The position numbers were made by a program, and so were the translations under genes. A model generated the notes under the pieces. That model searched no databases and had not been told where the DNA came from. It was given only the letters and a program-made list of their open reading frames with translations. Positions 25,171 through 30,304 of a DNA stretch of 35,917 nucleotides are shown in pieces. Numbering within the stretch: position 1 is the first letter of the stretch; every line of letters starts with the position of its first letter. This stretch comes from Planctomycetes bacterium GWF2_42_9. Its GTDB lineage: Bacteria; Planctomycetota; Phycisphaerae; Sedimentisphaerales; UBA12454. The stretch is from assembly GCA_001825675.1 (NCBI GenBank), contig MHYA01000143.1, forward strand, positions 1,129 to 37,045. The letters are read 5' to 3'.

Positions 25171-28100
25171 TTACTGCGAGTTCCTTATCTCCTCAATGAA
25201 TTCATCTAATTCCTCTTCTGTCATACTTGCTCGTAATTCTGCGTCTTCAAGCCATATTTGCTCAAGCCACTCGATCGCCCCTTGGGCATCGAAGGCTTCC
25301 ACGCTTTCCATCGATTCCGCCTGCAAACCCGATTCCATCATCATTTCCCCGCCACCCGGCATCATCATTTGCTGCTCGCCGCCGAGAATTATCGAATTGG
25401 AATCAAAAGCAACGGGCTGACTATTGACATCCCCGCTGGAATTATCAATTACAGTAATCGTAACCGGGCCGCTGTTGTAATGGATAGTGAAGTACCCCAC
25501 ATCGCCCGTGCCCGAGCCAGATAGATTAACACCGCTGATATATGCCCATGTCCCATTGGGGTCAATATCGGGATCGCTTCCCCAGCTTGGATCCCAGCCG
25601 AACTGATTGCAATCCGCAATGCCCATAGCTCCGGTCACAGTCGCATTACCGTCAACAACGATCCCAAGCCCCATGCACAACAGCGATACATCCGACTGCA
25701 CATACACAGTAACATCGCTGTTCGGGTCAGGATAAAGATTTTCACACACCAGATGTAAAGCCGTTTGCGGCTCTACAGGTTCATTTGGCTCATTGGGTTC
25801 GTTTGGCTCATTAACATCATTTACATCAGCTAGAAAATCATTGAACTCGGCCATGCTTAAGAAACTGCCCGCCCCAAAACTCCGAGTAACCAACCACTCT
25901 TTCACGAATTCGCCCAAGTCATAGTTATTTATAGTGCCATCGCCATATAGGTCACAAGCCCCGTTATAACCTGTTTGACCCCATACGCCTGCAAGCATCG
26001 CGTAATCAATAAAGTTGACGGTATCATCATGATTGAAATCCGGCGTATTAGCAAATTCATCCGCACCGATATCGATACGAGTACCAACCTTCCTCGCCCC
26101 GCCATCAATATCAGTTTCACCGGCAGGCGGAGTAAATCCGGTTTCACCGGCATTGATGCACGATGAGCCGCTTGAAATGTGAAAATCATTTTGATCGGCA
26201 GCAAAGAAATTCGGGTTGCCGGATACATTGGTAGCTCCGGTATAGCCGCCCTGAACGCACGAATATGTAACAGTTGCGTCTGCACTGGAAATTTGTGTGT
26301 CGTTGCCCCAGAAAATCGAACTCTTGGCAACCGTTTTACTTTTACTGTAAGAGTCCCAAAATTGAAGGCCTGTGGAATTGTAGGCAACAGTGCAGTTACG
26401 AATAGTCGTAATAGCTGATCTACTTGTGGACACGGAAATCGCTCTATAATTTCGGCAAAGTACGTTGTTTGCCATCGTTACAGCATTATACGGTTCACTA
26501 ATAAAAATTCCTGACCTCAATTCATAATTGCCGAATCCGCAACCGCTGACAATATTATTGTAGAACTGACCGGCAGTTAAATTATATGCGATAACACCGT
26601 CATAAGCCCATCCTCTGATATGGCAGTTTATGACCGCAAGTGCTCCGCCGTTAGTGGTTATGCCCATAGTTCCAGTTGTTCTGCCGTCAATGACACAGTT
26701 TGTGAGATTGACATCGCCTGTATACGAAACGCTGACTCCGTTAGAGTATCTGCTGTATAGCTGGGATGACGTCACCCGAACTGTACTGTTTTCGGTGCTT
26801 ATGCAGGTTCCTCCGGTATTTGAGTCTATCACACAGTTTAATATTTTCGCAACCGTGCTCGCGCCGCCAATGCTTATGCCTGGTGAGCCGTCTAGGATTG
26901 TAAAGCCATTAATTGTTGCATTGGGGTCTGATGTATAAGTATTGCCGATAGTTATTGCCGCACCAGAAGCCGGCGCGATGATCGTGCCATCAATAAACGC
27001 GCGATTTTCAGGATTAACACTTCGTATCGTAAGCTGCTTCGCGCCGAGGGTTACATTCTCGCGATATGTCCCCGGATCAACAACGATTACATCGCCATCA
27101 CTTGCACCATTGACAGCAGTTTGGATTTTCCAATAGTCCGTCTCTTGTGTAATATTATGCACCGGCTTAGGCGGCCCGCCAAACACCGGCCCCGACCCGA
27201 ACATCACCGCCATCGTAATAGACTTCGTCTGGCCGGGCTCAAGAGTACCCAAATCCCAGCCCATTGCGCCAGCCGCCGCTGAGGCGCTATAAATGTTGGG
27301 GTCACCGTTTAGACTATTATTTTTTATATTATACGTTGTATAGTCCGCAGTGCTGTCACCGCCAGAGCCTGTATCATATATACCGTTATCGAAAGTGGAT
27401 GGTTGAATTGTGCTGGCAAAAGTTATCCAGTCAACATGGTCTTCTTCCGGGTCGCCCTCATTCCATTGGGTTATCGCAAACCTGAAATCATTTGTTGCGC
27501 TGGGATTACATGGGTCGTAACTACGCGGCAGCAGTCCGGGAACAACCGCATTGGAATAAGTGGAAGATTTGTAGCCAGAGACAGTTACTAACCCGTTGAG
27601 CATTTGATAAAATTTGAGACCTGTTATATTGCCGGTTGTTTTAATGTTTTTAATGTTATAGGTTTGAAGCAAAACATATCTTTCACTTTTCACATAGGCT
27701 GCCGCGGAGTAGCCCTCAAGGTAAAATGGCAAAGAGGCGTAGCCGTTGCTACCAAGGTCAACCATTTTGTAATCAATTGTTACCCTAACATCGCTTTTTC
27801 CAATTATACTTCGAGCAGTATCATAGGCTGTTTGATAGTCATGATAATTTGTTAGAAAGTTATAGAATGGCTCCAAAGGATTGCTTGGATTATCCCATGA
27901 ATTATTGTAGACCCAATCAAAATCACTATTCGTTGTCCACGGTGGATATAACCAGTGGTCACTAAGCCACATCGACTGGTTATTCGTGATGCCTGTATAA
28001 TAAATGGCTGCGCCATATTCGCCCGACAGCATTTCATGTGAGGGTTGATTTGCATCATTATGCAGGTGGCAAACAGAAGGTCCCCAATAAAAACAATCTG

Positions 28101-28230
28101 AATAGCCTCCGGCATCAAATTCCGCCTGCCAAGCGGGATTACCAAGCCATACAAACTGTTCTGAAGGAAGTGTTGCAAAAGTAAGAGTTGTAAATAGTAA
28201 CACACTTAAAAAAATGGCAACTTTATACAC
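25171..28230 (-). CDS. Large exported protein: parallel beta-helix, dockerin-type and cohesin-like domains
   Basis: The 1019-residue product starts with a signal peptide (VAIFLSVLLFTTLTFA) and is probably secreted. Residues about 20-350 are an unrecognised domain. Residues about 355-725 are a right-handed parallel beta-helix (DGDVIVVDPGTYRENVTL, INGFTILDGSPGISIGG, repeated turns such as NCVIDSNTGG), as in polysaccharide lyases and adhesins. Residues about 730-781 form a dockerin-like pair of calcium loops (DFNHDDTVNFIDYAMLAG and DLYGDGTINNYDLGEFV). An Asn-Glu-Pro repeat linker follows, then a cohesin-like domain (DVTVYVQSDVSLLCMGLGI) and an acidic, methionine-rich tail. The start is GTG 28230 with AAGGAG seven bases upstream. 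Substrate and catalytic residues cannot be named. Confidence 0.82.
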   Translation of the reverse strand: MYKVAIFLSVLLFTTLTFATLPSEQFVWLGNPAWQAEFDAGGYSDCFYWGPSVCHLHNDANQPSHEMLSGEYGAAIYYTGITNNQSMWLSDHWLYPPWTTNSDFDWVYNNSWDNPSNPLEPFYNFLTNYHDYQTAYDTARSIIGKSDVRVTIDYKMVDLGSNGYASLPFYLEGYSAAAYVKSERYVLLQTYNIKNIKTTGNITGLKFYQMLNGLVTVSGYKSSTYSNAVVPGLLPRSYDPCNPSATNDFRFAITQWNEGDPEEDHVDWITFASTIQPSTFDNGIYDTGSGGDSTADYTTYNIKNNSLNGDPNIYSASAAAGAMGWDLGTLEPGQTKSITMAVMFGSGPVFGGPPKPVHNITQETDYWKIQTAVNGASDGDVIVVDPGTYRENVTLGAKQLTIRSVNPENRAFIDGTIIAPASGAAITIGNTYTSDPNATINGFTILDGSPGISIGGASTVAKILNCVIDSNTGGTCISTENSTVRVTSSQLYSRYSNGVSVSYTGDVNLTNCVIDGRTTGTMGITTNGGALAVINCHIRGWAYDGVIAYNLTAGQFYNNIVSGCGFGNYELRSGIFISEPYNAVTMANNVLCRNYRAISVSTSRSAITTIRNCTVAYNSTGLQFWDSYSKSKTVAKSSIFWGNDTQISSADATVTYSCVQGGYTGATNVSGNPNFFAADQNDFHISSGSSCINAGETGFTPPAGETDIDGGARKVGTRIDIGADEFANTPDFNHDDTVNFIDYAMLAGVWGQTGYNGACDLYGDGTINNYDLGEFVKEWLVTRSFGAGSFLSMAEFNDFLADVNDVNEPNEPNEPNEPVEPQTALHLVCENLYPDPNSDVTVYVQSDVSLLCMGLGIVVDGNATVTGAMGIADCNQFGWDPSWGSDPDIDPNGTWAYISGVNLSGSGTGDVGYFTIHYNSGPVTITVIDNSSGDVNSQPVAFDSNSIILGGEQQMMMPGGGEMMMESGLQAESMESVEAFDAQGAIEWLEQIWLEDAELRASMTEEELDEFIEEIRNSQ

Positions 28231-28325: not shown

Positions 28326-28889
28326 TTAATGGTTTGGTTTGCGTTTGTAAAAAATTAAGCTCCCACCAAACGCCAAAAGCGTAGCGGTTAATGGTTCTGG
28401 AACAGTGTGTAGTGAAACGATGCTTGGCAGTCCGCTAGAACGCAAAAAGTAAAACTCAAAATCGGAATTATCAGCCCACTTTCCGGCCAGCCATGTGTTA
28501 CTCTGGTTTTGCCATACAACAAAATCCTTACCATAGATGTTTATAGCATTCGACGCATTTAAAAGGCCGTGAAAACCTATAGCGATATCTCCGCCGAATA
28601 AATTAACAGTAGCACTTTGCGAATCATACAAATAAAAGACATCTATGCTGCCTCCTGTAACATTTACCGTACTGTGATCGAAAGCAGAAATAGAACCGAC
28701 CATGCCACCCGTCATGGTTACTATAGCTGAGTCATGCAGTGTAACTCGGTCATAGATGTTGCCAGTATTGATAGTTCCAACAGGATTAACAGAATTAAAA
28801 TCAATACTTGTTATTGCCTGCGCCAGTCCACTCCAGCACAGCAAAAGCCCCAAGATCAAAATCCGCCTTACAACCCTTGTACTACTCAT
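28326..28889 (-). CDS. PEP-CTERM sorting-domain exported protein (autotransporter-like repeats)
   Basis: This 187-residue protein begins with a signal peptide (RRILILGLLLCWSGLAQA) and ends with a PEP-CTERM tail: VPEP, a hydrophobic segment LTATLLAFGGSLIFY, and basic KRKPNH. Such tails are recognised by exosortase, which should be encoded elsewhere. The mature part has short beta-type repeats (TVNVTGGSIDVFYL, ATVNLFGGDIAIGF). Its function is unknown; it probably becomes a surface or matrix protein. ATG at 28889 has AAAGGAGG six bases upstream and is preferred to the longer open frame, which covers an RNA leader. It has its own promoter at 29129-29157. Signal peptide and leader closely match the next gene. 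Confidence 0.88.
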   Translation of the reverse strand: MSSTRVVRRILILGLLLCWSGLAQAITSIDFNSVNPVGTINTGNIYDRVTLHDSAIVTMTGGMVGSISAFDHSTVNVTGGSIDVFYLYDSQSATVNLFGGDIAIGFHGLLNASNAINIYGKDFVVWQNQSNTWLAGKWADNSDFEFYFLRSSGLPSIVSLHTVPEPLTATLLAFGGSLIFYKRKPNH

Positions 28890-28925
28890 TGTTGCCTCCT
28901 TTGAAAAAGAGTTCCCCAAATATTT

Positions 28926-29070
28926 CCCCAATTCCGCCTGCGCAAAATTGTAGGGCATCACCAAAACGTGCCTCACTACCCCGCCAAGGGCAAGAACAAC
29001 ACGCAGGCAATGCCCCTTTCTGGGGCACTGACTTCTACGGTTGTTCTTTTTCCTTTTTTCAAAGGTGGCG
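28926..29070 (-). ncRNA. Structured 5' leader of the PEP-CTERM gene at 28889 (candidate cis-regulatory RNA)
   Basis: An outer stem pairs CGCCA (28982-28986) with TGGCG (29066-29070). A middle stem of nine pairs joins AAGAACAAC (28992-29000) to GTTGTTCTT (29040-29048). An inner hairpin pairs TGCCCC (29011-29016) with GGGGCA (29022-29027). A final hairpin at 28926-28955 (CCC, CAATT, twelve-base loop, AATTG, GGG) lies next to the ribosome site region. The leader at 30062-30197 has the same elements in the same order with different paired bases. Coordinates are on the plus strand; the RNA reads from 29070 to 28926. Confidence 0.6.
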
Positions 29071-29128
29071 TATTTGTGAGACCGCAACCAAGTCCAGTGG
29101 GACTATCATATTATTCAATTGTTAATAT

Positions 29129-29157
29129 ACTATATCTAATCAGGCCTTTTATGTCAA
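29129..29157 (-). promoter_or_regulatory. Promoter of the PEP-CTERM gene at 28889
   Basis: On the minus strand TTGACA (29157-29152) and TATAGT (29134-29129) are 17 bases apart. Transcription would begin near 29122, and the next 15 bases (CAATTGAATAATATG, 29121-29107) are identical to those after the other PEP-CTERM promoter. The -35 box overlaps the end of the upstream gene. The leader would be about 233 bases. Confidence 0.7.
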
Positions 29158-30027
29158 ATTATATCTATTAAACAACAATCCGCCGCTGGCAAGTAAAAGC
29201 ATGGTCGCAGGTTCAGGAATAGCGTAGATTAACCCGTGGGTATTTCCCGATGTGTCGTAATAATAACCAGTGATTTTATCACCATCTATGCCAGTAAAAA
29301 TCGTGCTGTGACCATTCGCTTCAGGCATGTCGAGAATTGCCCACGTTGTTCCGTCATATAAGAAACTGTGGGTTTGGTAATAGTAATAGTATGTTCCCAC
29401 AAGATTTTCCCCGCTGATACCCGTTACGGCAGAGCTGCCTGGCCCTGGGCCACTTAGGGATGTCCAAATTTGCGTTGCCATATTGTACGAAAAACCATAT
29501 GTATGCGTACTGCCAGTAAGAGTGTACCATCCAACGAGATTGTCGCCGTCCAAATCAACTATAAATGTTTCGTGGCTTCCCGGCTTATCAAGAGTGGCCC
29601 AATTTGATCCATCATAGAAAAAGCCATGTTTAAGCGTACCGCGACCCGTGTCGTAGTAACCAACCACATTGCGGCCATCGATACCTTCTATTCGCGTACT
29701 CGCAACATCAGATAAATCCAAAGTGGTTAAGTTTGTTCCATCATAGAGAAATCCGTGTTTATGATAGTAGTCTCCATAATCACCAACAAAATTGGTTCCA
29801 TCAATTCCCTTGATAATATCAGGGGTGTTTTGAATAGCCCAGGTATCAGTCGCCATGTTGTAAATAAAGTTACCAAGGCTGGACGAGCCGACAACATTGT
29901 TGCCGCTTATACCATAAATTTTGGTACCTGTGGCGTTTGGCATATCTAAAGTAAGCCATGTTCCAGCTTGTGCTAGCCCGCTCCAGCACAACAAAACCCC
30001 CAAGATCAAAATTCGTTGCACATTCAT
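29149..30027 (-). CDS. PEP-CTERM exported protein with HAF-type repeats
   Basis: This 292-residue protein has a signal peptide (QRILILGVLLCWSGLAQA) and a PEP-CTERM tail (IPEP, then ATMLLLASGGLLF, NRYNLT). The mature part consists of about six repeats of the type GIDGTNFVGDYGD followed by HGFLYDGTNLTTLDL, for example GIDGRNVVGYY with HGFFYDGSNWATLD and GISGENLVGTYY with HSFLYDGTTWAILD. These match extracellular HAF-type repeats and could form a small beta-propeller. Function is unknown. The start is ATG 30027 with GGGAGG eight bases upstream. It has its own promoter (30275-30304) and structured leader. Only the basic end of the tail is weak, with a single arginine. Confidence 0.87.
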   Translation of the reverse strand: MNVQRILILGVLLCWSGLAQAGTWLTLDMPNATGTKIYGISGNNVVGSSSLGNFIYNMATDTWAIQNTPDIIKGIDGTNFVGDYGDYYHKHGFLYDGTNLTTLDLSDVASTRIEGIDGRNVVGYYDTGRGTLKHGFFYDGSNWATLDKPGSHETFIVDLDGDNLVGWYTLTGSTHTYGFSYNMATQIWTSLSGPGPGSSAVTGISGENLVGTYYYYYQTHSFLYDGTTWAILDMPEANGHSTIFTGIDGDKITGYYYDTSGNTHGLIYAIPEPATMLLLASGGLLFNRYNLT

Positions 30028-30061
30028 TTTACAACCTCCCTTATGAAAGAATTTTTCAAAA

Positions 30062-30197
30062 CCTCCATCCGCACCGTGCAAATAAGAGGGCACTGCCACA
30101 TCGTGGTCGCTTCGGGCCGCCAGGCCCATGGAGAACACGAGCGCAGCGCCCAACTGGGCGCTGACACCTCTCGTTTCTCCAAATTCAAATCTGGCGG
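30062..30197 (-). ncRNA. Structured 5' leader of the PEP-CTERM gene at 30027 (candidate cis-regulatory RNA)
   Basis: An outer stem pairs CCGCCA (30117-30122) with TGGCGG (30192-30197). A middle stem joins GGAGAA (30130-30135) with TTCTCC (30175-30180) and ACGAG (30137-30141) with CTCGT (30170-30174). An inner hairpin pairs AGCGCCC (30145-30151) with GGGCGCT (30156-30162). A final hairpin at 30062-30089 has a 13-base loop nearly the same as its counterpart. A local GGGCC/GGCCC hairpin could compete with the outer stem. The RNA reads from 30197 to 30062. The remaining noncoding sequence here, 30305-30534, is C-rich and AT-rich with no other structure I can name. Confidence 0.6.
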
Positions 30198-30274
30198 ATT
30201 GAAGCGAAACGTTAAAAGCTCAGCATTTTTATGCTCCCCGCTTCCGCAGGGCATATTATTCAATTGCCAGCACT

Positions 30275-30304
30275 ATAATAGCAATAAAGGCCCAGTTTTG
30301 TCAA
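30275..30304 (-). promoter_or_regulatory. Promoter of the PEP-CTERM gene at 30027
   Basis: On the minus strand TTGACA (30304-30299) and TATTAT (30280-30275) are 18 bases apart. Transcription would begin near 30268. The following 15 bases (30266-30252) are CAATTGAATAATATG, as at the other PEP-CTERM gene. The leader would be about 241 bases. Confidence 0.7.

Follow-up and report, generated by a model that had tools for sequence, protein, structure and literature searches.

A candidate family of attenuator-type, riboswitch-like leader RNAs upstream of genes for secreted proteins in Planctomycetota

The window analyzed here is a stretch of 35,917 nucleotides from Planctomycetes bacterium GWF2_42_9 (assembly GCA_001825675.1, contig MHYA01000143.1, positions 1,129 to 37,045). 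Its minus strand encodes two secreted proteins. Each gene has a leader located between a σ70-like promoter and a strong Shine-Dalgarno site (Table 1). From promoter to start codon, the leaders measure about 240 nt, and the conserved RNA core comprises about 150 nt. Both fold far better than shuffled sequences (z = -4.6 and -3.9), and their position agrees with an earlier note on this DNA, which had described two minus-strand leaders upstream of the ribosome site.

Gene 2 exceeds the PF07589 cut-off in the genome scan (22.4 bits; E = 0.0014 as a single protein). Gene 1 stays under it (17.4 bits) and, as a single protein, has no Pfam match; its C-terminus is of the same type as that of gene 2. 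The genome presents two exosortases (E = 1.8e-54 and 6e-50) and about 80 PEP-CTERM open reading frames above the PF07589 cut-off. Gene 1 is followed, after about 95 nt, by a gene (25171-28230, minus strand) whose 1019-aa product has matches of NosD-like and choice-of-anchor Q type. It is possibly in one operon with gene 1.

Table 1. Features of the two leaders and their genes (window positions; all on the minus strand).
Feature	Position	Strand	Remarks
Leader 1, predicted promoter	29129-29157	-	TTGACA (29152-29157), 17 nt, TATAGT (29129-29134)
Leader 2, predicted promoter	30275-30304	-	TTGACA (30299-30304), 18 nt, TATTAT (30275-30280)
Leader 1, full extent	~29128 to start codon at 28889	-	
Leader 2, full extent	~30274 to start codon at 30027	-	
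Leader 1, 5' end motif	29107-29121	-	CAATTGAATAATATG; family consensus GACAATTRAATA
Leader 2, 5' end motif	30252-30266	-	CAATTGAATAATATG
Leader 1, strand 1	29094-29099	-	CACTGG; pairs with strand 2 (TCAGTG), 6/6 including G-U
Leader 2, strand 1	30220-30225	-	TGCTGA; pairs with strand 2 (TCAGCG); compensatory change
Leader 1, conserved RNA core	28940-29086	-	R1 43.5 bits, E 2.9e-8; R2 64.7 bits
Leader 2, conserved RNA core	30076-30213	-	R1 82.9 bits, E 1.5e-17; R2 101.9 bits
Leader 1, P2	28972-29080	-	29074-29080 with 28972-28977
Leader 2, P2	30107-30207	-	30201-30207 with 30107-30113; 7/7 pairs
Leader 1, P3 (CGCCA/TGGCG)	28981-29071	-	29065-29071 with 28981-28987; 3' strand is the loop of PX (28978-28991)
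Leader 2, P3	30117-30197	-	30191-30197 with 30117-30123; 7/7 pairs
Leader 1, P4/P5	28992-29048	-	AAGAACAAC (29040-29048) with GTTGTTCTT (28992-29000)
Leader 2, P4/P5	30129-30182	-	30170-30182 with 30129-30141
Leader 1, strand 2	29022-29031	-	TCAGTGCCCC; 5' strand of P6
Leader 2, strand 2	30155-30164	-	TCAGCGCCCA; 5' strand of P6
Leader 1, strand 3	29007-29016	-	GGGGCATTGC; 3' strand of P6; partner is strand 2 or 4
Leader 2, strand 3	30143-30152	-	TGGGCGCTGC; 3' strand of P6
Leader 1, strand 4	28953-28961	-	GTGATGCCC; 9/9 pairs with strand 3
Leader 2, strand 4	30088-30096	-	GCAGTGCCC; 9/9 pairs with strand 3
Leader 1, U-tract position	28945-28952	-	TACAATTT; weak, 4/8 T
Leader 2, U-tract	30080-30087	-	TCTTATTT; 6/8 T
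Leader 1, Shine-Dalgarno site	28895-28901	-	AAGGAGG
Leader 2, Shine-Dalgarno site	30035-30042	-	AAGGGAGG
Gene 1	28326-28889	-	secreted protein, 187 aa, PEP-CTERM-like end VPEPLTATLLAFGGSLIFYKRK
Gene 2	29149-30027	-	secreted PEP-CTERM protein, 292 aa

The core consists of a helix P2 that encloses a pseudoknot, an arm P4-P5, and a hairpin P6. In the pseudoknot, the upstream strand of P3 (CCGGCAA type) pairs with the loop of a small hairpin, PX (GGC...GCC). Most of the stems that the earlier note had drawn are real. Its outer stem CGCCA/TGGCG corresponds to P3, its middle stem (AAGAACAAC/GTTGTTCTT against GGAGAA plus ACGAG) to P4/P5, and its inner hairpin (TGCCCC/GGGGCA against AGCGCCC/GGGCGCT) to P6. 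The leaders do lie where it had placed them (28926-29070 and 30062-30197). However, the cores have other limits, the full leaders are longer, and strand 1, a further conserved piece, falls 5' of those coordinates.

We searched for further copies with covariance models. BLAST with one leader gives homologues in relatives. Model R1 was built from 11 copies, with both window copies left out, and it still recovers them (Table 1). The claim of a cis-regulatory leader with compensatory changes is supported. R1 matches 86 of the 161 genomes of the order (E<=0.001, these E-values and those of R2 being rough), the order being Sedimentisphaerales by record names. Homologous leaders in related genomes had been set beforehand as the test. 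With model R2, the GWF2_42_9 genome itself shows 15 copies (E<4e-4), and the copies within one genome diverge widely in sequence. The 15-mer CAATTGAATAATATG occurs in this genome as four exact copies, all at the starts of such leaders, and a degenerate motif of this type precedes about half of the family copies.

In the wider phylum, R2 matches 17 of the 392 genomes drawn from it, and 13 of these 17 do not belong to the order. Matches in other classes are weaker than within the order, and most of the outside copies that we read out show by eye the same architecture. The named records with copies are nearly all Phycisphaerae/Sedimentisphaerales or other Planctomycetota MAGs. The genomes compared are mostly MAGs, and one of them (G000) has a contamination of 7%. 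Some MAGs that carry the labels of other phyla or classes (Odoribacter, WWE3, and Kuenenia) also contain strong copies; these bins are likely mislabelled or contaminated. Likewise, a 12.1-kb IMG/VR viral contig bears an intact copy (positions 2250-2399). It may reflect carriage by a phage, or the contig may be misclassified bacterial DNA.

We aligned 112 copies to evaluate the pairing. In this alignment, which was fitted to most of the core helices and favours them, 93.4% of the pair cells in P2, P3, P4, P5, P6, and PX are standard. Two-sided changes occur at all 36 of the 36 core pairs (977 cells, compared with 286 when shuffled). P2 is paired in 96.1% of cells with 355 two-sided changes, and P4 in 80.5% with 253; P3 and PX reach 98.3% and 97.6%. 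When the partner is shifted by one column, core pairing falls below 50%. Two tests consider the relatedness of the copies. With substitutions redistributed on the tree, pair by pair, the top 20 or so pairs are all within P2, P3, P4, P6, and PX. Under a second null that keeps the change counts of each column, every core helix exceeds the percentage paired in all 300 simulations. Moreover, G-U pairs occupy 473 cells and A-C mismatches 61, which indicates that what is selected is RNA of this strand rather than folded DNA. The leaders are almost certainly structured RNAs that act in cis.

An additional outer stem, P1, is present in about a dozen copies. It pairs GGCGUU with AACGCC, the latter some 12-16 nt past the end of the model and beyond the U-tract. 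We rejected P1 as a stem of the family since only these copies have it; it is a feature of a sub-group. The position of its 3' strand weighs against the attenuator model proposed below.

The 3' part of the element presents a second level of conserved pairing. Strands 2 and 3 are the two sides of P6. Strand 4 is a 9-nt strand of GCGGUGCCC type, followed by a U-tract (mean 6.0/8 T in the family). Strand 1 is a conserved YACUGA located 9-15 nt before the core, and its partner in strand 2 is UCRGUG. The pairing 2:3 (P6) on one side and the pairings 1:2 and 3:4 on the other exclude each other, and strand 4 runs into the U-tract. These possible pairings give the layout of a classical attenuator around a pseudoknotted core.

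The 3:4 complementarity holds in 98.0% of cells, with 66 two-sided changes, even though the alignment was fitted to a model with a competing local hairpin. Together with GUG:CAC, the values are 97.0% paired and 95 two-sided changes against 26. The tree-aware null never reaches the observed 3:4 pairing (0/300). Among 28 distant copies, most of which come from a single other family, the 3:4 complementarity again outperforms every swap (0/1000). None of the individual 3:4 pairs is significant in the pair-by-pair tree test. For 1:2, we found 5.70 of 6 positions paired versus 5.53 expected (0/3000 shuffles, a shuffling that ignores relatedness). The negative control, 1:4, shares this limit and falls exactly at the null level. 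Compensatory cases of 1:2 are UGCUGA/UCAGCG (the window copy at 30.2 kb), CGCUGA/UCGGCG, CACUAA/UUAGUG, and CACUGG/CCGGUG.

The earlier note had proposed a terminal hairpin with a nearly unchanged loop (CAATT/AATTG, CCTC/GAGG, TTGCGC...). This hairpin is not kept in the family. The region corresponds to strand 4, whose partner is the 3' strand of P6, and to the U-tract, after which comes TGCGC. There is some support for a local hairpin that also ends at strand 4 (86% paired; 7/300 in the tree-aware null). As the terminator, we discarded it: its 86% is near its own shuffled value, compared with the 98% of 3:4. The 3:4 stem is G+C-rich, has 9 pairs, and directly precedes the U-tract, as in intrinsic terminators, with a weak U-tract in leader 1. 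As in riboswitches, the 5' leader contains a conserved, structured, aptamer-like domain with covariation. Comparative sequence analysis couples to this core a set of exclusive helices (2:3 versus 3:4 and 1:2).

We examined the genes downstream. A hydrophobic, signal-like N-terminus is found in 72.5% of 102 distinct downstream genes and in 17.3% of 173 other open reading frames of the same loci. PEP-CTERM ends appear in 30 of the 77 complete downstream genes (39%), compared with 4 of the 173 background frames, and 8 further complete genes have a dockerin-like end; these three calls rest on simple patterns and not on a trained predictor. Some of the remaining genes encode restriction or defence-type DNA methyltransferases (EcoRI methylase family, N6_N4_Mtase, HSDR_N + N6_Mtase). 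The leader is present at only a minority of the approximately 80 PEP-CTERM genes of GWF2_42_9. A regulator of PEP-CTERM genes as such, the original suggestion, is too narrow, considering that other secreted proteins and DNA methyltransferases are also downstream. The downstream genes have no metabolic pathway in common. This would favor a signalling ligand or a protein over a metabolite of a single pathway. In several species, small conserved open reading frames directly follow the RNA (at three loci of 55-56 aa, at two of 69 aa, and at two of 53-54 aa), and several of them are membrane-like.

The conserved pairing pattern suggests an on/off switch for transcription. We propose that the two leaders probably belong to a family of cis-acting transcription attenuators that has not been described before and is riboswitch-like in organization. 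The attenuator logic itself is likewise probable. When the pseudoknotted core keeps P5/P6 (2:3), RNA polymerase would read through and the gene would be on. Otherwise, strand 4 would invade P6 by strand displacement and leave 1:2 plus 3:4. The 3:4 stem beside the U-tract would then end transcription. The choice between both folds would be made while the RNA is transcribed, and, by analogy with the ZTP switch, the core would decide between 2:3 and 3:4. What sets this choice is probably a ligand (or protein) that binds the core close to the P5/P6 internal loop, which is conserved (AAGUC / GCUUGCGUG). Between a small molecule and a protein in this role, we consider the chances to be even.

In favor of this model, promoter-like sites (at least 9 of 12 bases) are upstream of 42% of copies, compared with 8% in shuffles, and a start codon with a Shine-Dalgarno site is usually 15-110 nt downstream of the RNA. 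Nested folding predictions give no balanced switch. With 3:4 forced, the mean energy lies 11.5 kcal/mol above that of the P6 state. So, 3:4 could win only by kinetics, or if P2-P4 persist as a pseudoknot. Finally, the weak U-tracts of the window copies (4/8 and 6/8) mean that these two may be leaky or use another read-out, for example ribosome access.

Among the alternatives, the one that survives best is a leader bound by a protein, which we regard as unlikely. It would be a processive antitermination element (LoaP-linked or EAR/put-like) or a protein-controlled attenuator, and not a small-molecule riboswitch. Processive antitermination elements often serve surface and accessory operons. The targets observed here are surface and defence genes instead of one metabolic pathway, and they suggest no particular ligand. 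Nevertheless, the four-strand terminator logic is more easily reconciled with attenuation than with an antitermination element that is constitutive.

A stand-alone small RNA, acting in trans or by binding a protein as a 6S-like scaffold, is less probable still. The element has its own promoter and U-tract, and many different genes follow it, as such an RNA would allow. However, the genes at short distance on the same strand are strongly enriched for secreted and PEP-CTERM proteins, the copies of one genome differ widely in sequence, and there are tandem copies in front of one gene.

A DNA element would be an attC-like recombination site or a transposon end, folded as a single strand in a cassette-like tandem array. 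We consider it very improbable. Several copies, tandems, varied accessory genes including restriction-modification, and copies with large internal deletions are in its favor. Against it, the excess of G-U over A-C given above indicates selection on one RNA strand, a promoter and a U-tract flank the element, and the site is before the gene, not after. For these reasons (position 5' of genes with a promoter, and the G-U/A-C asymmetry of an RNA), an integron attC site was rejected. Last, a recent local duplication without function, which would account for the likeness of both leader and signal-peptide region between the two genes and had been raised in the earlier note, has practically no probability left: homologues with hundreds of compensatory changes in 86/161 genomes refute it, a pairwise alignment of the window copies has differences in about a quarter of its columns or more, and this genome alone has a family of 15 such diverged copies.

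We compared the proposed attenuator with known systems. At gathering and relaxed thresholds, we found no Rfam 15 family over the element, be it in the window, at 16 loci with canonical or diverged copies, or at 6 further loci; a match to a described family was the other outcome that the earlier note had named as refuting. The ZTP (pfl, RF01750) and fluoride (crcB, RF01734) riboswitches are similar in having a pseudoknotted core, as far as can be read from the sequence. They also share a hairpin whose 3' strand doubles as the 5' strand of the terminator, and a U-tract. The invader of the ZTP switch base-pairs to the 3' nucleotides of its stem P3, which the ligand prevents (PMC10085676). The leader family differs from both in its fold, its sequence, the lack of an Rfam match, and its target genes; it adds a strand 1 that captures strand 2. 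With attenuators of the trp type, it has in common the strand logic 1:2, 2:3, and 3:4 and the U-tract after strand 4, but its strands are separated by a large pseudoknotted core. In the four copies of this genome that we read by eye, there is no conserved leader peptide, only short or coincidental frames.

Other cis elements show a similar distribution. The c-di-GMP riboswitches (GEMM) and other orphan cis elements occur in several copies per genome before unrelated genes, many with surface functions. Such elements are not often upstream of homologous genes (PMC2864571). The leader family is likewise multi-copy before unrelated genes, although it has no Rfam match to these in sequence or structure. 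The Rhodopirellula-1 motif is described as probably cis-regulatory, with Proteobacteria and Planctomycetes as taxa and an ambiguous RNA status (Weinberg 2010; PMC2864571). Since it lists Planctomycetes and has no Rfam accession, the leader family may be the same motif. Our literature search gave no paper on this leader, and the only two that join PEP-CTERM and riboswitch are unrelated by title and abstract. The family is a new candidate for a cis-acting attenuator or orphan riboswitch.

The result is a large structured RNA family without an Rfam match (more than 110 copies aligned, in 86/161 genomes of one order), whose covariation extends into the expression platform. A 2026 study notes that expression platforms are so diverse that covariation there is difficult (PMC13273304). 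The proposal offers a concrete switch by which sediment Planctomycetota may turn exosortase-sorted surface proteins on or off, and the family ties these proteins to DNA methyltransferase and defence genes. At its widest, the reading is a new riboswitch class, distributed through the order and patchily through the phylum. It would sense a (probably signalling) ligand and switch surface and secreted proteins together with DNA-methyltransferase defence genes, via a four-strand attenuator wrapped around a pseudoknotted aptamer. We hold this full reading tentatively, at slightly less than even chances. Should a ligand be identified, the family would constitute a new riboswitch class, in a phylum on which our literature searches gave little RNA work.

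The arrangement of the copies varies. Large internal deletions are present in copies at seven loci, where the strand-4 region and the U-tract come almost immediately after a promoter-like region. For one gene (MNKKKCLKIFFAVFGF...), the leader is intact at one locus (L089) and deleted at another (L159). Decay, regulated loss, or errors of MAG assembly are possible. Tandem copies on the same strand, about 110-540 nt apart, appear at ten loci. In one genome (G028), the first and second copies resemble two separate sub-types; this recurs at three loci, all of them upstream of a PEP-CTERM gene. One tandem (L218) consists of two copies with identical aligned sequence, 303 nt apart.
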